Assembly (NCBI GenBank): GCA_028345965.1
Contig: JAOMEP010000001.1
Location: forward strand, 65,872-129,871
Reading direction: 5' to 3'
Length of the DNA stretch: 64,000 bases
Source of the DNA: Candidatus Nitrosopelagicus sp.
GTDB lineage: Archaea; Thermoproteota; Nitrososphaeria; Nitrososphaerales; Nitrosopumilaceae
Shown: piece after piece, positions 9,469 to 18,346 of the stretch
Layout: every line of letters begins with the position of its first letter
How positions within the stretch are numbered: the stretch's first letter is position 1
Made by a program: the position numbers and the translations under genes
The notes under the pieces: model-generated
The model's input: only the letters and a program-made list of their open reading frames with translations
What the model was told of the DNA's origin: nothing
Database searches by the model: none

Positions 9469-10182
9469 TCAGTAATTTTTTATTATCATAGCTTGAGAAC
9501 CAGTTAATTCAATTAGATGTATTTCATTATCATTTTTGAATTCTTTAATTGCTTTTTGTATACCATCAGAATGATAATCATGAATTAAAATTATTCCGCC
9601 TGACACCATCTTCGGGAAAAAAAATCTTAAGGATTCAATGGTACTTTTATACAAATCAACATCCAAGTGTACAAAACAGAATTTCTTATCAATAATTTCT
9701 TTTCCAGATTCAGGAAAATTTCCTTGAATTATAGATACATTTTTGTATTTTTTTAATAATTCTTGTATAGATTCAATACTTGTATTACTAAATTCATTTT
9801 CATACCAGTGTTTATTGCCAAAATGTGTATCGTCATCGGATACTTTTGGGAGTCCTGTGAATGTATCAAATAGATATAATTCTTTTTCGTTCTTTACTTC
9901 ACAAATTAATTTGGCAGATCCACCTTGATAAACACCTACTTCTGCCAGATCACCTTCTAAAGAAGTTTGAGTTTTTACAATTGAATAAATCATATAAGCT
10001 TCATAAGGATAAAATGCAAAATCTACTTCATTTTTGATTTCTTTGATCAAGTCTACAATTTGTTTATCTTTATAAAAAGACAAAAGTTTGAATTGGAAAG
10101 TTGTTGCTAATTTACTTAAAATACCTCCTATACTTTTTGAACTATAAACAATCTTCCGTGTATTATCTACCATAATATGCAA
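9469..10182 (-). CDS. TylF/macrocin-type O-methyltransferase
   Basis: 'GDLAEVGVYQGGSAKLICEV...LYLFDTFTGLPKVSDDD', 'FVHLDVDLYKSTIESLRFFFPKMVSGGIILIHDY'. Confidence 0.88.
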   Translation of the reverse strand: MHIMVDNTRKIVYSSKSIGGILSKLATTFQFKLLSFYKDKQIVDLIKEIKNEVDFAFYPYEAYMIYSIVKTQTSLEGDLAEVGVYQGGSAKLICEVKNEKELYLFDTFTGLPKVSDDDTHFGNKHWYENEFSNTSIESIQELLKKYKNVSIIQGNFPESGKEIIDKKFCFVHLDVDLYKSTIESLRFFFPKMVSGGIILIHDYHSDGIQKAIKEFKNDNEIHLIELTGSQAMIIKNY

Positions 10183-10271: not shown

Positions 10272-11318
10272 TTGGAAGTAAAAGGTGAAGATCCGCTTGT
10301 CAGTATAATTATTCTTAATTATAATGCAGGTAAATTAATAGAAGAATGTGTAGATTCCATCTATCAAAGTAATTATAAAAATTTTGAAATTATTCTTGTT
10401 GATAATAATTCAAAAGATGAGAGTCATGTGAAATGTAAAGAAAAATTTCCGTTAATCAATCTAATATCAAATAAAGAAAATTTAGGTTATTGTGAAGGAA
10501 ATAATGTAGGTATTCGAGTTGCTAATGGAAAATTTGTAATCATACTTAATCCAGATACAATTGTTGAACCAAATTGGATAAATGAATTACTACGAGGATA
10601 CGAAAAATTTGGTGATGGAATTTATCAACCAAAATTTTTAACAATAGATAATGAATCAATTTTGCAAAGTACTGGAAATATGATTCAATTATTTGGTTTT
10701 GGATATTCAAGAAATAAAGGTGATAAAGATGAAAATCAATCTAATAATATAGAAAACATCAATTATGCATCTGGAACATGTTTGTTTACAACAAAAGAAA
10801 TATTCACACAGTTAGGATTTTTTGATTCATTTCTTTTTGCTTATCATGATGATTTAGATCTTTGTTGGAGAGCTAGTATGCAAGGAATTCGATCATATTA
10901 TATTCCAACTTCGATTGTTTTTCATCCTTCGGAAGGATTTAGTTTTAAATGGAGTAATTTTAAATTTTTTCTTCTAGAAAGAAATAGGCTATACTGTTTG
11001 TTTACTCATTATTCACATAGTACTATTCTAAAATTTCTACCTTCATTAGTATTAGTAGACATTGCTGTTAGTGTTTTTTATTTAAAAAATGGATTATTTA
11101 CTGAAAAAATTAAAGCATCATTAAATATTTTAAAAAATTCAAAAATTATACATTCAAGATATAATTTAATTCAGAAAAATAGAACAGTTGATGACAAAGA
11201 AATAATTTTATATTTTAGAAATGAAGTAATTCTTCCAAAAGGAACTAATATTAAAAATAAAATGCCCTTTAACTCGGTACTTCGAGTTTTAGCGAAAATG
11301 TGTAGAAAAGTAATTTAA
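10272..11318 (+). CDS. Family 2 glycosyltransferase (TTG start)
   Basis: 'PLVSIIILNYNAGKLIEECVDSIYQSNYKNFEIILVDNNSKD', 'IILNPDT', 'HDDLDLCWRA'. Confidence 0.92.
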   Translation: MEVKGEDPLVSIIILNYNAGKLIEECVDSIYQSNYKNFEIILVDNNSKDESHVKCKEKFPLINLISNKENLGYCEGNNVGIRVANGKFVIILNPDTIVEPNWINELLRGYEKFGDGIYQPKFLTIDNESILQSTGNMIQLFGFGYSRNKGDKDENQSNNIENINYASGTCLFTTKEIFTQLGFFDSFLFAYHDDLDLCWRASMQGIRSYYIPTSIVFHPSEGFSFKWSNFKFFLLERNRLYCLFTHYSHSTILKFLPSLVLVDIAVSVFYLKNGLFTEKIKASLNILKNSKIIHSRYNLIQKNRTVDDKEIILYFRNEVILPKGTNIKNKMPFNSVLRVLAKMCRKVI

Positions 11319-11683
11319 TTTCTCAGTGCAATTGCAATAGCAATTGCATAGTCTTTTTCATGACTCATCGATATTTTGAATAAATATTTTGAATGAAAGT
11401 TTTTTAGTTTAATTTGAGGTTTTGAATTTTTATAAGAAATTTCTATATCTAAAGGCATGATTTTTTCATCAATTGATTTAATTACAGCCTCTTTGATTGC
11501 AAACTTTCCTGCAAAATGCTCGTATGGAAATTTAAATTTATTACAATAATCAATTTCTGATTGTAAAAAAATTTTTTTATAAAAGGTGATATTTTCTGAA
11601 AAAATTTTTTTTTTGAATCTCTTGATTTCTACAATATCAATTCCAACATTTTCAATATTAAAATTTTTTATATTTTCAATCAT
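11315..11683 (-). CDS. acpS: Holo-ACP synthase (4'-phosphopantetheinyl transferase, AcpS type)
   Basis: 'NVGIDIVEIKRFKKKI', 'FAGKFAIKEAVIKSI', C-terminal 'ISMSHEKDYAIAIAIA'. Confidence 0.88.
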   Translation of the reverse strand: MIENIKNFNIENVGIDIVEIKRFKKKIFSENITFYKKIFLQSEIDYCNKFKFPYEHFAGKFAIKEAVIKSIDEKIMPLDIEISYKNSKPQIKLKNFHSKYLFKISMSHEKDYAIAIAIALRN

Positions 11684-12077
11684 TTTTAGTTACTAACTCT
11701 ATCAAATTACAATTAGTATTTTTCATATTTAGATGGAGGAATGAAATCAATCGATTTTCAAATCCCAGTACAGGCTTAACAATTAATTGCGCACCGTTTT
11801 TTTCTAATTCATTAATTTTTTCATCTATATCATCTACTTCAAAACACAAATGATGAAATCCTCCACCATTAGATAAAAAGGAAGAGATAGGTGAATCTTT
11901 TTCAGCAGGTTCAATCAATTCTAGATTTATTGGTCCAATTTTTAAAAAACATACATTGACTTTTTGGGAACCAACAAGTGTTGGAATACCTATAGTATCA
12001 AATTTTAGGAATTTTCTTAGATCACCAATTGAATCATTGATTTTTGGAACAACTATACCAATATGATGAAGCTTCAT
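11676..12077 (-). CDS. VOC-family (glyoxalase/methylmalonyl-CoA epimerase-like) protein
   Basis: 'MKLHHIGIVVPKINDSI', 'FHHLCFEVDDIDEKINEL', 'CNLIELV'. Confidence 0.85.
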   Translation of the reverse strand: MKLHHIGIVVPKINDSIGDLRKFLKFDTIGIPTLVGSQKVNVCFLKIGPINLELIEPAEKDSPISSFLSNGGGFHHLCFEVDDIDEKINELEKNGAQLIVKPVLGFENRLISFLHLNMKNTNCNLIELVTKND

Positions 12078-12310
12078 TTGTTTTCACAACCATGTTTTAC
12101 AAGTAAGTTTTCAATATTTTGAACATTTTGTATTTCTAAAATTTCATCTAGTGAAAATTTTATACCAAATTCTGTTTCTACTTCATTAATTAGTACATAC
12201 ATATTCATAGAATCCCATGTATCAATTGTTTTTGGACTAGAATTATTATTTATTAAAGAAATATCTATATTGAAAACCCTGGAAATAATTAGATATAATT
12301 TATTATTCAT
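12074..12310 (-). CDS. Acyl carrier protein
   Basis: 78 aa, 'TIDTWDSMNMYVLINEVETEFGIKFSLDEI' with Ser in D-S-M phosphopantetheine site. Confidence 0.88.
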   Translation of the reverse strand: MNNKLYLIISRVFNIDISLINNNSSPKTIDTWDSMNMYVLINEVETEFGIKFSLDEILEIQNVQNIENLLVKHGCENK

Positions 12311-14064
12311 TCTTCCTTCGATATATGAAGATGTGATGTAGTACTATCTATATGATTCTCAATTTGATAAACCCATTGATCATTTAATTTCTTAAAACCA
12401 AAAGAAGGTAAGAAACTTTCTGCTGGCTGATTTTTTTTAGTAGGTATAAAATTTGCAGTTAATTTAGAAACATTTTCTTTTTTTGCTAAAGAAATAATAT
12501 AATTAATAATTCCTTGCTCAATTCCTCGTCCAATAATCCTACAGCTTAAGAGAAATGTATCAATTATCCATTCTTTATTATTTTTATCAACAATAAATAC
12601 TCCAGTAATCCCATTATCTCCAAATTTATCTTCAACACGTGCACATCCAATTATTTTTTTATCGTCTTGAGAAAAATTTCTAATATCTTCTTCCTGATAA
12701 CGTTTAGTAGTAAGATTGAATTGATTTGTTTTTAATGTTAATTGAGAAATTCTAGGAATTGTGAATTCATCTGCATTTTTAATAAATAATTTAATATTCA
12801 ATTGTTTCAAATATTCATCAAAGTCATTAGTTGATTTTTCTAATTCAGTTCGTTTTCTTTGTTCCCTATACATTTTCCCACGTGATTTATCTTCTTCAGT
12901 GATCTTTAGAACATTAAAATCAGTTAATTCTAATAATGTAGGCACGTATTGAGATGGATCTTTTGGCATTTCAACTGTTAAGACTTCAGGAAGTACAGAA
13001 ATAATAAAATCTCTATTCACTTTATCATCATCAAAAAACACGATACTATCTAAACCAATATTCACTTCTTGTGAAATTTCTCTAAGATTTCTAGATTTAT
13101 CATTCCAATTAATTTTCAAACATGCAAAATTTTCTTCACGAAGAATCATGTTTGGATGTTCTTTTATAACTTTCATAGCATCTTCGTAATTATTTTTACT
13201 ATTTACAGCAAGAATTATTCCACGTTTGTGTAAAGAAAGTAAATGTTTCTGAAATTCAATAAATGATTTCCCGATAGGATCATTATGTCCAAGTTTTATT
13301 CCATTAAAACCATCTTCACCAATAATTCCACCCCATAAAGTATTATCAAGATCTAATACAATACATTTTTTATTTATTCCAAGTATAGGTTTAACATAAC
13401 CCATAAGTTCATTAGCCAAGTATGGAATTTTCTCAAGTGAAATTTTTACGTCACCCAAATAGTATTGCCTATAATCAAAAACAGTATTCAAACCATGATT
13501 AGTAACAAAGCCATTGAAATTATACAGAAAAGTAAGTGGATCATTTTTAAATTCATTTGATAATTTTTGGTTAAGATCATGTATCATTTCTTGTAAACCA
13601 TACTCAATTTTGGATTCAAAAATACCATATGAAGAATATGTAGGAGGTACAAAGTTTGAAAAAATTATTTTAGATTTAGATTTATTAGTATAAAACTTAA
13701 TTAAATTTGAAATTTCTTCAAATTTTTTATTTACAAAAATTCGTCTATCATTTTCAGTTACATCATAAGTGGAATAAAATAGATCTTCCAAGATTGTCCT
13801 CGTATCTAAAATTAGAAAACAAATTTCAGGGTTGAATGAATATAGATCACTGTTAGAGTTAAGAATCTCTTCATTATATCGATTGTATCCACCAGAGAAA
13901 ATATGACTAAAAATGTTTGATTTAGCACATTTGACTTGTAAGGTTTCTGCAAGTCCATTTAATGTGAAACTACCAATTACTGCTATACGAGAAACTTTCT
14001 CAAAATCAGATTCTTTTAATTTTTTAGATTCATTAATGAAATATGATAATTTTTCTTCTAGCAT
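12307..14064 (-). CDS. FkbH-like HAD-IIIC protein with C-terminal GNAT-like domain
   Basis: 'KKCIVLDLDNTLWGGIIGEDGFNGIKLG' (DxD HAD motif), 'VFFDDDKVNRDFI', C-terminal 'LLSCRIIGRGIEQGIINYIISLAKKE'. Confidence 0.92.
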   Translation of the reverse strand: MLEEKLSYFINESKKLKESDFEKVSRIAVIGSFTLNGLAETLQVKCAKSNIFSHIFSGGYNRYNEEILNSNSDLYSFNPEICFLILDTRTILEDLFYSTYDVTENDRRIFVNKKFEEISNLIKFYTNKSKSKIIFSNFVPPTYSSYGIFESKIEYGLQEMIHDLNQKLSNEFKNDPLTFLYNFNGFVTNHGLNTVFDYRQYYLGDVKISLEKIPYLANELMGYVKPILGINKKCIVLDLDNTLWGGIIGEDGFNGIKLGHNDPIGKSFIEFQKHLLSLHKRGIILAVNSKNNYEDAMKVIKEHPNMILREENFACLKINWNDKSRNLREISQEVNIGLDSIVFFDDDKVNRDFIISVLPEVLTVEMPKDPSQYVPTLLELTDFNVLKITEEDKSRGKMYREQRKRTELEKSTNDFDEYLKQLNIKLFIKNADEFTIPRISQLTLKTNQFNLTTKRYQEEDIRNFSQDDKKIIGCARVEDKFGDNGITGVFIVDKNNKEWIIDTFLLSCRIIGRGIEQGIINYIISLAKKENVSKLTANFIPTKKNQPAESFLPSFGFKKLNDQWVYQIENHIDSTTSHLHISKEE

Positions 14065-14134
14065 GAAAATAATGAAAATTTAACATATTTGATATTTACT
14101 ACCATTAATAATGAAATTATGATGTTTTTTATTG

Positions 14135-14368
14135 TTAAATTTCAATACTGTGATTTTTTAGATGTTTTTTAATATCAGCCACAGTTTTTACATCAGTAAT
14201 TTCAGAAATAGAAAATTGGATATTAAATTCCATTTCAAGTGCATCAATTAATGCAAGTCCATGAAAAGAATCCCAGTTTTCAATTGTTTCAGGACTAGAT
14301 TGATCATTAATTAATGAAATATCAATATCAAAAACCTGAGATAATATTTCATATAATTTGCTTGTCAT
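14135..14368 (-). CDS. Acyl carrier protein
   Basis: 77 aa, 'TIENWDSFHGLALIDALEMEFNIQFSISEI' with WDS phosphopantetheine site. Confidence 0.88.
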   Translation of the reverse strand: MTSKLYEILSQVFDIDISLINDQSSPETIENWDSFHGLALIDALEMEFNIQFSISEITDVKTVADIKKHLKNHSIEI

Positions 14369-14409
14369 CTAAAAAGTTGTTAAATGAGTGCTATAAATTA
14401 ATTTTAAAT

Positions 14410-15888
14410 TTAGAATTGGAAATAGATGAATTCTTGTGCACTACCTACATAAAACAAACTAATTGGCAATACTACACAAAATAGGAATAAAATCCAATAT
14501 CGAAGTTTTAATTTTGAAATTAGTTCAGGAAGATTTCCTTTTTTGTATGATATATAATGTAAAATAGTAAATAAAATCAAAAGTAAAATTGGAAATTCAT
14601 TGTTTTTAATTATTTCAATAGTTTGTGAAGTATTAAAGTCAAGTAAAATGTACTTTTGCATCGCGTACCACATATGATCAAAATTTTGAATTCTAAATGC
14701 AATAAATGTAAAAAATATCAGGTATTGTGTCACGACTATACTAAAGATTTTTCCAAATTTTGTTTTGAAGAATGATTCAGTTGATTTTCCATATTTTTTT
14801 CTAAGAACTGTAAATACTGCTAGAAATATTCCATGTAGACCACCCCAAATTATGAAATTCCATGATGCACCATGCCACAAGCCCATTACTAACATAGACG
14901 CCAATAAACAAGAAAATACCATAATATTTGAGCGTCTATGTTTGAAAACTAAAGGATAGTACAAATAATCTCTTACCCAAGTTGACAGACTAATGTGCCA
15001 TCTTGTCCAATAATCTGATGGAGATGTGGCAAAGAATGGTTTATTAAAATTTAGAGGTATTTTAAAACCAAGAATTGCTGCGGCGCCTATTGCAATATCA
15101 GAATAACCAGAGAAATCACAATAAATTTGCACACCGAAAGCTATAGCACCAAGAATTATAGAAAATGATTCCATACCAATTGGATTTGAAAAAATATTAT
15201 TTACTAATGGTGATATATTATCTGCAAAAAACATTTTCTTAAAAAAACCAATAGCCATTAATGATATTCCAAATTTTAAATCAGCATTTTTAATAATGAA
15301 TAGTTTTAGTCTCTCTGAACCGTTTGATTTTTCAAGTTTTTCTTTAAGTTGAGGTAAAAAGTGACTTGCACGTAATATTGGACCAGCAACTAACGGAGGA
15401 AAAAATGCAACAAATAATGCATATTCTTTTAACGATTTCGTGGGAGTTAAGCTTCCACGATAAATATCAATGATATAGCTTAAGGATTGGAAAGTGTAAA
15501 ATGATATACCAATTGGTAAGGCCAGATTTAAGAGAGAAATTTCTGAACCAAGATCGAATATGTTGCCTAGTATGTTAAATTGTGTTATTGAGAAATCAGA
15601 ATATTTGAAAAATCCCAACAACCCTAAACTTCCTGCTAGACCAACTACAAACAGTGCTTTTTTTCTACGTAAAGAATTAGCATTAAAAATTGCTCTTCCA
15701 ATGTAAAAGTGTAGTAAAATAGTAAAAATCAGTAATGTTACAAGATAATTATCAGTATAATACAAAAAGAATAAACTGGCAAAAATAAGAAATATGTGCT
15801 GGAATTTTCTATAATGAAAAATTGCTATTATTCCAAGTACTATAGGTAAAAAAATTAAAAAATCTAGAGTGTTAAATAGCATTATCAT
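14410..15888 (-). CDS. MBOAT-family membrane-bound O-acyltransferase (AlgI/DltB-like)
   Basis: 'GISFYTFQSLSYIIDIYRG', 'QIYCDFSGYSDIAIGAAAILGFKIPLNFNKPF...YWTRWHISLSTWVRDYLYYPL', 'GLWHGASWNFIIWGGLHG' with catalytic His. Confidence 0.95.
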   Translation of the reverse strand: MIMLFNTLDFLIFLPIVLGIIAIFHYRKFQHIFLIFASLFFLYYTDNYLVTLLIFTILLHFYIGRAIFNANSLRRKKALFVVGLAGSLGLLGFFKYSDFSITQFNILGNIFDLGSEISLLNLALPIGISFYTFQSLSYIIDIYRGSLTPTKSLKEYALFVAFFPPLVAGPILRASHFLPQLKEKLEKSNGSERLKLFIIKNADLKFGISLMAIGFFKKMFFADNISPLVNNIFSNPIGMESFSIILGAIAFGVQIYCDFSGYSDIAIGAAAILGFKIPLNFNKPFFATSPSDYWTRWHISLSTWVRDYLYYPLVFKHRRSNIMVFSCLLASMLVMGLWHGASWNFIIWGGLHGIFLAVFTVLRKKYGKSTESFFKTKFGKIFSIVVTQYLIFFTFIAFRIQNFDHMWYAMQKYILLDFNTSQTIEIIKNNEFPILLLILFTILHYISYKKGNLPELISKLKLRYWILFLFCVVLPISLFYVGSAQEFIYFQF

Positions 15889-16822
15889 CTAACTCCTTAA
15901 AAATTATTTTTGATATATCATTAGTGTAAATTTTTGCATCAGAATGAATGGATATGTGAAATGAATCTCGCCATATATCTAAATCAATATAGCTGTCATG
16001 AAAAAAATATACAGGTATTTCAAAGTCATGTGCATTTTGATTAAGCATTCTCTGAAAAGATTCAATTTCATTTTCACTAATTGAATTAATTACTATTTTA
16101 TGTTGAGGATTAGAAAATAAAATGACTTTAATTCCATTATCTTCAAACTTTTGTAAAATTTGTTTTAAAGCAATAATTTTTTTATTTTTTTCAGTAAAAT
16201 TAAAACCATTAGATTCAGGATAACCATATTCCTCTATAATTTTTTCATAGCTGTTAATTGGTGTCGGATCAAATTTAATGAAAGGATGAAAATGTTGATC
16301 TGGACCACGTAAAATATATTTTAATAACATTAATGAACGATCTTTAGGTGAACTAGGAATTTGTTCTCGAACAGAAGAATCCATAGTGTTTTCAAATAAA
16401 GATATGAAAATATTCCTAGGTTCTAGTAAAAAATTTGTATTAGAGTAAGATTTAGCTTTAAAATTTTGAAATTCCCAAATTCCAATTCCATATAGAACAA
16501 ATTTTGGTTTGTGCGAAATAATATTATCAATACTGGTAATACGTTTTGTCGTAGTATCACTCATGTCTGCTAAATTATATACAAGATAGTTTTTTTGTTG
16601 TTCTACAAGTTCAGTATTTATTATTTCAGCATTAATTGAATAGACATTACTTGAACCAATAATGAAGATTTTATCTTTGACAATTTCATCCATATTTTTA
16701 GAATTTATGAGTCCATACCAACTTGGATCATAAGATTGTATGTAAAAATCCATTGAATATGAGAAAGTTATTGCTACAATTATTATCACAAAAATTAAAC
16801 ATGACAAAATTTTGTAGTTCAT
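15872..16822 (-). CDS. Membrane-anchored SGNH-hydrolase-like protein (DltD/AlgJ/X-like role proposed)
   Basis: N-terminal TM; block I-like 'IFIIGSSNVYSI'; C-terminal DxxH 'WRDSFHISIHSDAKIYTNDI'; 17-nt overlap with MBOAT gene. Confidence 0.7.
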   Translation of the reverse strand: MNYKILSCLIFVIIIVAITFSYSMDFYIQSYDPSWYGLINSKNMDEIVKDKIFIIGSSNVYSINAEIINTELVEQQKNYLVYNLADMSDTTTKRITSIDNIISHKPKFVLYGIGIWEFQNFKAKSYSNTNFLLEPRNIFISLFENTMDSSVREQIPSSPKDRSLMLLKYILRGPDQHFHPFIKFDPTPINSYEKIIEEYGYPESNGFNFTEKNKKIIALKQILQKFEDNGIKVILFSNPQHKIVINSISENEIESFQRMLNQNAHDFEIPVYFFHDSYIDLDIWRDSFHISIHSDAKIYTNDISKIIFKELDDNAI

Positions 16823-16944: not shown

Positions 16945-17478
16945 ATGAAGCGTGAAGATGATGTATTTTCCATTAACGAGAAAGAAGTAATGGATTATTA
17001 TGGTTTTGTTGGAGAGGTTGGAAAATTAAAAATGAAATCAAAATTCACTAAAGGTTGGATTTTACATTCATTGGCATATTCATCTCCACATTCAGGCTTT
17101 GCAATAAAAATGCAGAAAATGAGAGGCGTGAAGATTGGAGAAAATTGCCATCTTAATCCATATGTTCTACTTGATCTAGTTTACCCAGAGCTAATTGAAA
17201 TAGGTAATAATGTTACATTAGGTTCGAACTCTATGATTTTTGCACATAATAACCCAACTGCAAATTTATTTTTAAAACAAGGCGAATATCCAAGAAAAGT
17301 TGCTAAAGTGAAAATAAAATCAGGTGCGGTTATTAATCCAGGAGTAGTTGTTAATGCAGGAGTTACAATTGGTGAAAATTGTATAATTGGACCACGTAGT
17401 GTTGTAGGTCAAGATATTCCAGATTATTGTGTTGCCATTGGAAATCCAGCTCGTGTTATAAAAAAAATCGAACGGTAG
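16945..17478 (+). CDS. Left-handed beta-helix (hexapeptide) acyltransferase
   Basis: 'KIGENCHLNPYVLLDLVYPELIEIGNNVTLGSNSMIFAHN', 'AGVTIGENCIIGPRSVVGQDIPDYCVAIGNPARVIKKI'. Confidence 0.9.
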   Translation: MKREDDVFSINEKEVMDYYGFVGEVGKLKMKSKFTKGWILHSLAYSSPHSGFAIKMQKMRGVKIGENCHLNPYVLLDLVYPELIEIGNNVTLGSNSMIFAHNNPTANLFLKQGEYPRKVAKVKIKSGAVINPGVVVNAGVTIGENCIIGPRSVVGQDIPDYCVAIGNPARVIKKIER

Positions 17479-17500: not shown

Positions 17501-18346
17501 GTGTTTGTTTTGAATCTTCTAGGAATTGATTTCGAGGATTGGTATCACCCACAATTAATTAAAGAGAATCTCCCTCCGGGAGGGAAACTAGAACCTAAAG
17601 TGATTCAAGGTATTGACAAAATATTAGATTGGTTAAGACAAAACGATACATTAGCAACATTTTTTGTAGTAGGAGAATTACTTGAATATGAACCAGAATT
17701 ATTAGATAAAATTATTGAAAATGATCATGAGATTGGATTTCATACAATGCATCATAATCGATTAGACGAAGATGACTTTAAAGGAAAGTTTTCTCAAGAA
17801 TTAGATAGATTCACAGAACTTACTCAAAAAAGATCTATAGGATTTAGAGCTCCAACATTTTCATTAAATAATATTTCATCATGGGCAATAGATACTTTAG
17901 AACAAAAAAAATATTTGTATGACAGTAGCATCATTCCAGCAAAAACTAGTTTATATGGAAATCCAGATGCAGAAAAAAAACCATATAAAATTTCCAGTAA
18001 CTCATTAGAAAAAAATGATGAAAATGGGAATTTAATTGAATTCCCACTTTTAACAACAACATTTCTAGGTAAAAAAATTCCTGCTGCAGGAGGATTTTAT
18101 CTGAGAACATTGCCAATGAAGGTAATCAAAAATGCAATTAAAAATCAAGAAGAAAAACAAATTCCATCTAGTTTCTACATCCATTCATGGGAATTAACTC
18201 CAGAATTCATGCCAAGAATTGATTTGCCAATTAAAGAGAAATTTATCACATATCATAATTTGGAAAAATCTATGTCAAAAATGACTGAAATTATAAAGAA
18301 ATTTGAATTTACAACGTTCAAAAAGTATATTTCAAATTTAAACTAA
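17501..18346 (+). CDS. Polysaccharide deacetylase (NodB-like; TTG start)
   Basis: 'LGIDFEDWYHP', 'TFFVVGELLEYEPELLDKIIENDHEIGFHTMHHN', 'GFRAPTFSLN'. Confidence 0.9.
   Translation: MFVLNLLGIDFEDWYHPQLIKENLPPGGKLEPKVIQGIDKILDWLRQNDTLATFFVVGELLEYEPELLDKIIENDHEIGFHTMHHNRLDEDDFKGKFSQELDRFTELTQKRSIGFRAPTFSLNNISSWAIDTLEQKKYLYDSSIIPAKTSLYGNPDAEKKPYKISSNSLEKNDENGNLIEFPLLTTTFLGKKIPAAGGFYLRTLPMKVIKNAIKNQEEKQIPSSFYIHSWELTPEFMPRIDLPIKEKFITYHNLEKSMSKMTEIIKKFEFTTFKKYISNLN

Follow-up and report, generated by a model that had tools for sequence, protein, structure and literature searches.

A putative acyl carrier protein-based acylation cassette with an MBOAT-SGNH gene pair in a surface-glycan locus of Candidatus Nitrosopelagicus

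A cassette of seven minus-strand open reading frames (ORFs), encoding in order an SGNH-like protein, an MBOAT acyltransferase, an acyl carrier protein (ACP1), an FkbH protein, a second acyl carrier protein (ACP2), a VOC enzyme and an AcpS phosphopantetheinyl transferase, is located at positions 11315-16822 of a 64-kb stretch of DNA from Candidatus Nitrosopelagicus sp. (the window; contig JAOMEP010000001.1). The window represents a portion of contig 1 of the host genome, which is 1.0 Mb in size and 72% complete. Listed from the SGNH to the AcpS gene, the junctions are a 17-nt overlap, a 41-nt gap, a 70-nt gap and overlaps of 4, 4 and 8 nt. An earlier note on this DNA had described the same gene order and junctions; ORF coordinates and Pfam and NCBIfam matches, together with a structural model for the SGNH protein, agree with the former, and the latter were found exactly as described. 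The window also encodes TFE-alpha, A/V-type ATPase subunits and an ammonium transporter, and the closest named relatives identified by a genome scan with an FkbH alignment (limited to the best 80 loci and thus no census) were Ca. Nitrosopelagicus and Marine Group I, for which reasons the contig carrying the cassette is taken to be of archaeal origin.

The SGNH/DltD-like protein (15872..16822, minus strand) is a predicted extracytoplasmic acyltransferase with a single hydrophobic membrane helix at its N-terminus (residues 1-29), a catalytic serine (Ser58, 16649-16651) and a D286-x-x-H289 motif (15956-15967). No Pfam or NCBIfam family, including the DltD family of Pfam, matched this protein above cut-off. 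Its AlphaFold2 model (22 sequences, mean pLDDT 80.5) matched GDSL/thioesterase-I and DltD structures (E ~1e-6 to 6e-5), the fold resembling DltD and general SGNH enzymes (TesA/GDSL) equally. Among SGNH proteins encoded beside an MBOAT gene, Ser58 is kept in 29 of 29 and His289 in 27 of 29. The adjacent MBOAT gene (14410..15888, minus strand) specifies a protein that matched PF03062 (E=2e-28) and DltB structures (99 bits), while MBOAT_2 (PF13813) had no match in the host genome. His298 (14995-14997) and His339 (14872-14874) are both conserved in 29 of 29 MBOATs. The C-terminal sequence FIYFQF (14413..14430, minus strand) represents an FXYXXF acyl-tyrosine shuttle motif fused to the MBOAT, and residues 305-355 (14824..14976, minus strand) contain YYPLVFK in place of the YIPLGGN of CoA-type enzymes.

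ACP1 (14135..14368, minus strand), encoded beside the MBOAT, and ACP2 (12074..12310, minus strand), the carrier of the core module defined below, scored 23 and 27 bits, respectively, against PF00550, both above gathering. Ser34, the predicted phosphopantetheine site, is encoded at 14267-14269 in ACP1 and at 12209-12211 in ACP2, and the serine of the WDS motif is conserved in 31 of 31 ACPs. In a tree of these short proteins, ACP1 groups, with weak support, with ACPs of operons that encode a MaoC protein rather than with those of VOC-type operons, and ACP2, without firm support, with the latter. The intervening FkbH gene (12307..14064, minus strand) encodes a protein predicted to charge ACP with a 3-carbon acyl group, which matched TIGR01686 (319.9 bits; cut-off 146.65) and FkbH_N (PF21211), contains the HAD motif D-x-D-N-T with invariant D238 and D240, and has a PDB relative, 3slr. 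Of the earlier FkbH/GNAT assignment, the first half is thus upheld; a GNAT domain in its own right matched poorly (PF00583, E=0.19), and the FkbH model itself spans that region. The methylmalonyl-CoA-epimerase-like VOC enzyme (11676..12077, minus strand; PF13669, E=1e-18) is predicted to act on an ACP-bound acyl group; it falls below the cut-off for methylmalonyl-CoA epimerase (TIGR03081, 79 vs 114.95 bits), and its residues His5, Glu53, His76 and Glu127 are conserved in 11 of 11 sequences. AcpS (11315..11683, minus strand) matched PF01648 and TIGR00556 above cut-off and is the sole PF01648 match in the (incomplete) host genome.

Comparison of neighbourhood maps showed that the gene arrangement is conserved in relatives and is therefore not due to chance. 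The maps revealed a fixed core, FkbH-ACP-(VOC or MaoC)-AcpS, which occupies one site and is divergent from genes for a hexapeptide acyltransferase and a polysaccharide deacetylase. In the window, these are a left-handed beta-helix acyltransferase (16945..17478, plus strand; PF00132), which has LpxA/LpxD and sugar O/N-acetyltransferases among its relatives in the PDB, and a DUF3473-type deacetylase (17501..18346, plus strand; PF01522 and PF11959) for which no hydrophobic signal or membrane segment was predicted. LpxA and LpxD are users of acyl-ACP. Within the genus, the deacetylase is present in 14 of 14 AcpS-positive genomes compared with 2 of 17 AcpS-negative ones (p=5e-7); in both of the latter (G006 and G022), the hexapeptide transferase and deacetylase genes lie at a contig end, so that the missing ACP genes are uninformative. 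In genomes G017 and G020, an AMP-ligase-ACP pair substitutes for FkbH with the same hexapeptide transferase and deacetylase alongside. The constant association of core, hexapeptide transferase and deacetylase suggests that the acceptor enzyme of the core is the hexapeptide transferase. An AMP-ligase-ACP pair occurs in the place of FkbH, with the same AcpS and hexapeptide transferase, at loci L046, L047 and L109, the last of which then carries a CoA-type SGNH-MBOAT pair. Among 33 Nitrososphaerota FkbH loci, 9 have a VOC gene and 24 a MaoC gene; because the two never occur together, they may perform equivalent jobs.

FkbH_N was found in 12 and MBOAT in 3 of 31 genomes of the genus. Since FkbH-ACP-AcpS occurs without MBOAT in most relatives, the cassette consists of two joined modules: the core AcpS-FkbH-ACP2-VOC and an optional SGNH-MBOAT (plus ACP1) add-on. 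The earlier description of one self-contained operon needs correction in that there are two modules and the constant partners of the core, the hexapeptide transferase and the deacetylase, lie just outside 11315-16822. The SGNH-MBOAT pair adjoins ACP-system genes in the window and in genomes G018, G027, G108, G122 and G142, and in G000, G122 and G027 a separate ACP, distinct from that of the FkbH operon, adjoins the MBOAT/SGNH genes. In the MBOAT tree, the window protein and that of G018 group as sisters, whereas the FkbH proteins of the two do not, indicating that SGNH-MBOAT has changed place among FkbH operons yet is still linked to them.

In G018 (L028:11326-14424), MaoC and GT2 are separated by two genes, of 499 and 519 aa, and the 499-aa product has no Pfam match. 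FkbH and its neighbours in G142 (L133:6834-11721) and G083 (L118:548-1683) are interrupted by frameshifts or stops, which reflect either decay or assembly errors. In G035, which has an MBOAT and no AcpS match, a GNAT gene fills the slot held elsewhere by AcpS/FkbH/hexapeptide transferase (L030:15199-16251). In genus g37 (L113, L115, L122 and L124), the MBOAT neighbours are of ~950 aa, with the SGNH-like part inside a much larger protein.

The genome scan and neighbourhood maps also placed AcpS-FkbH-ACP with a hexapeptide transferase and deacetylase in Thor-, Loki-, Heimdall- and Bathyarchaeota, the FkbH proteins of which form a clade separate from those of Nitrososphaerota. At L213, L214, L216, L199 and other Asgard and Bathyarchaeota loci, AcpS-FkbH-ACP faces the hexapeptide transferase and deacetylase genes, representing a conserved archaeal cassette. 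The statement of the earlier note that archaea rarely carry ACP/AcpS fits the published view of 2012 that ACP is absent from most archaea (PMC3533463); however, FkbH-ACP-AcpS cassettes were found in Thor-, Loki-, Heimdall-, Bathy-, Woese- and Nitrososphaeria genomes. An MBOAT gene beside FkbH-ACP was observed at seven further loci in distant lineages. The arrangement is AcpS-FkbH-ACP-MaoC-SDR-MBOAT-SGNH in Magasanikbacteria (L182), VOC-MBOAT-SGNH-like-ACP-FkbH on pSymB of Sinorhizobium meliloti (L246:6844-12723) and ACP-FkbH-MBOAT-SGNH-VOC-hexapeptide transferase on a Rhodobacteraceae plasmid (SC52), and FkbH-ACP was found together with MBOAT in Patescibacteria (L225), Woesearchaeota (L183), Omnitrophota (L188) and Tistrella. 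Plasmid records of Sinorhizobium with an FkbH match number 40, and in that of pSymB the SGNH-like gene carries the annotation of a TonB-dependent receptor. A joint tree of bacterial FkbH-linked and archaeal MBOATs was unusable owing to long branches.

Co-occurrence of the component genes was surveyed, as the earlier note had proposed, across 250 Nitrosopumilaceae genomes, and all associations were positive: AcpS was present in 32 of 33 FkbH genomes (p=3e-28), AcpS in 15 of 29 genomes with MBOAT vs 31 of 221 without (p=1e-5), and FkbH in 9 of 29 vs 24 of 221 (p=0.006). Together with the recurrence in distant lineages, these results support a real association of MBOAT-SGNH with ACP/FkbH, one that is not confined to archaea.

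Known MBOAT-SGNH pairs other than Dlt use an acyl-CoA donor and carry a C-terminal FXYXXF with an acylated tyrosine, while Dlt uses a carrier-protein donor and has its FXYXXF on DltX (PMC12148441). Comparison of six carrier-associated archaeal MBOATs with 23 other archaeal MBOATs revealed that nearly all group-specific columns fall in residues 305-355, a segment that starts right after His298 and spans His339. Here, the 23 other proteins contain L-Y-I-P/T-L-G-G with minor variants, which is not found in the six; the window MBOAT lacks the LGG/RTYxNL segment of its CoA-type relatives. When the panel was widened, LGG (or FGG) occurred in 33 of 34 MBOATs that have no ACP neighbour, including PatA of Neisseria gonorrhoeae, and was missing from 14 of 15 ACP-linked MBOATs, including DltB (p=3e-10 for LGG against linkage). 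Three MBOATs inspected later fit this pattern: one of Sulfitobacter, near an AMP-ligase-ACP fusion, lacks LGG, and one adjacent to AlgF and one without ACP possess it. AcpS-positive genomes host 6 of 6 archaeal carrier-type MBOATs vs 7 of 21 others. V305/I306 of DltB, which we take to be the contact for DltC, align with V314/F315 (14944-14949) of the window MBOAT. As LGG is lost from the latter just as from ACP-linked MBOATs, its acyl donor is most likely ACP rather than CoA, and the LGG segment may determine the donor type.

The cassette was subsequently compared with described systems. With Dlt it shares a carrier protein, an MBOAT with a carrier-type donor segment and an SGNH-fold protein, the fold of which matches DltD and general SGNH enzymes to a similar degree. 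However, FkbH takes the place of DltA and no AMP-binding gene is present in the cassette; the MBOAT scores 177.7 bits against a DltB equivalog cut-off of 375 (TIGR04091), and ACP1 15.2 bits against a DltC equivalog cut-off of 68 (NF003464), with no match listed for ACP2; FXYXXF is fused to the MBOAT rather than located on a separate DltX, for which no dedicated gene search was made; and the operon includes AcpS and VOC. A plain Dlt system was ruled out on these DltA, DltB, DltC and DltX comparisons, and, unlike for Dlt, we know of no teichoic acid for the cassette system. The Dlt-like character proposed earlier is supported by the recurrence and the donor signature, and is not borne out by Dlt-specific sequence tests. 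The C-terminal FXYXXF and a separate SGNH protein are shared with PatA/PatB and AlgI/AlgJ/AlgX O-acetylation systems (PMC12148441), and the cassette indeed displays FIYFQF at the MBOAT end and an SGNH partner with a catalytic Ser and D-x-x-H. In contrast to those systems, it has lost the CoA-type LGG segment that N. gonorrhoeae PatA retains, and it contains ACP, FkbH and AcpS; a PatA/AlgI system was rejected because of the donor segment (YYPLVFK), the link between motif and donor being one that we infer.

Tetronate- and aeruginosin-type pathways share an FkbH-family protein, an ACP and a predicted glyceryl-S-ACP (Tmn16/Tmn7a, AbyA2/AbyA3; PMC3625739, PMC13122637), but the cassette has no polyketide or peptide assembly line and lies in a glycan locus with sugar acyltransferases. 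The S. meliloti pSymB and Rhodobacteraceae SC52 clusters combine FkbH, ACP, VOC, MBOAT and an SGNH-like gene; they are bacterial and have no AcpS in the cluster, and no function for them was found in the literature consulted. XrtA-type exopolysaccharide loci (TIGR03006 deacetylase, TIGR03098 acyl ligase) share the deacetylase superfamily, and relatives of the AMP-ligase occur in G027, though the cassette deacetylase remains below the TIGR03006 cut-off (191.5 vs 276.2 bits). The literature search yielded no described FkbH plus MBOAT glycan system, papers with both words being concerned with aeruginosin-type peptides, and searches on gellan, O-antigen and Nitrosopelagicus returned nothing relevant. 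The composition, for which the earlier note was aware of no described archaeal system, extends to bacteria. Judged by its sequence features, the cassette is a variant of the MBOAT-SGNH kind, neither Dlt nor PatA/AlgI, that would work like both.

The genes flanking the cassette (~3 to 22 kb) encode a DegT aminotransferase, an epimerase/dehydratase-type sugar SDR, GT2 glycosyltransferases, a flippase, a GT39-type transferase and, as read from the sequence, a nucleotidyltransferase-like protein, and the cassette is accordingly located in a surface-glycan locus. A TylF/macrocin-O-methyltransferase-like gene (9469-10182) lies near the core, a position at which it occurs only in VOC-type operons (window, G025, G027 and L148); its product might methylate the acyl group or a sugar.

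We favour, with fair though not strong confidence, the reading that the cassette is an ACP-based acylation system of this locus with two outlets, a cytoplasmic hexapeptide transferase and MBOAT-SGNH export. The genes present, their conserved active sites, the modular pattern of conservation, the recurrence and the donor-type signature are directly observed; from these we infer which reactions take place, which acyl group is used (glyceryl or a derivative), which glycans accept it and which enzyme each ACP serves. In the cytoplasm, AcpS would generate holo-ACP, onto which FkbH would load a glyceryl (C3) group from 1,3-bisphosphoglycerate; glyceryl loading on ACP in vitro is documented for Tmn16, a homologue of FkbH (PMC3625739). 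VOC would then epimerise or dehydrate the ACP-bound acyl group, a step for which MaoC, or MaoC and SDR, would be the equivalent in other genomes. The deacetylase would expose a sugar amine, and the hexapeptide acyltransferase would subsequently acylate that sugar. At the second outlet, the MBOAT would receive the acyl group from ACP, with ACP1 as the likely partner, and pass it to Tyr489 of its own FIYFQF, after which the membrane-anchored SGNH protein would transfer it via Ser58 to a glycan outside the cell.

A number of observations weigh against this reading. Most FkbH-positive genomes do not carry SGNH-MBOAT, and ACP genes are lacking near many of the SGNH-MBOAT pairs in archaea. The genome counts are not phylogenetically independent, many genomes are incomplete, and the AcpS count missed the AcpS genes of G201, G246 and G095. 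The donor signature emerged from inspection of the archaeal MBOATs, which leaves the bacterial sequences as the only independent test, and it has exceptions in G108, where a CoA-type MBOAT lies beside ACP and hexapeptide transferase genes, and in G257, where a carrier-type MBOAT has its ACP module elsewhere on the same contig.

The main rival, a CoA-fed MBOAT beside an unrelated ACP module, is unlikely, yet carries appreciable weight. FkbH-ACP2-VOC-AcpS would then feed the hexapeptide transferase only, SGNH-MBOAT would O-acetylate a glycan from acetyl-CoA in the manner of PatA/AlgI, and ACP1 would be a remnant of an older MaoC-type operon, as its resemblance to MaoC-type ACPs would allow. The completeness of the core without MBOAT, the ACP-free pairs of many relatives and the independent movement of the pair are all in keeping with this, as is the use of acyl-CoA by the FXYXXF-fused MBOATs studied to date (PMC12148441). 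It accounts poorly for the missing LGG/RTYxNL segment, for the seven loci in distant lineages and for the distribution of carrier-type MBOATs among AcpS-positive genomes; the recurrence of FkbH-ACP beside MBOAT and an SGNH-like gene in particular supports the Dlt-like reading of the add-on. It is improbable that the carrier system produces a soluble, polyketide-like small molecule or secondary metabolite and modifies no glycan: FkbH is chiefly known for its part in polyketide and peptide pathways (PMC3625739, PMC13122637) and the MaoC and SDR partners are fatty-acid/polyketide-like, but no ketosynthase or NRPS genes lie within or beside the operon, the locus contains glycosyltransferase, flippase, nucleotidyltransferase and aminotransferase genes, and the constant partners belong to sugar-modifying families. 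Least probable is a bacterial-type fatty acid pathway of the host archaeon, with which ACP, AcpS and the MaoC and FabG-like SDR of related operons would be compatible, given that AcpS accompanies FkbH in 32 of 33 genomes and that neither a FAS II condensing enzyme nor a malonyl transferase was recognised beside the operon, no whole-genome search for them having been made.

More broadly, we hold it to be an evenly balanced proposition that the ACP-based acylation cassette represents a second carrier-fed MBOAT-SGNH system besides Dlt, with FkbH as loader, across archaea and bacteria. FXYXXF-fused MBOATs would repeatedly have lost LGG and would take a C3 hydroxyacyl group from ACP, and in archaea the system would be grafted on the FkbH-ACP/hexapeptide-transferase core, this core largely accounting for the retention of ACP and AcpS in several archaeal phyla. 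With its own copy, S. meliloti offers a tractable laboratory organism in which the prediction can be tested. If true, MBOAT-SGNH surface-acylation systems would gain a new loading route and a sequence signature that predicts a CoA or carrier-protein donor, and archaeal ACP and AcpS would gain a role outside fatty-acid synthesis.

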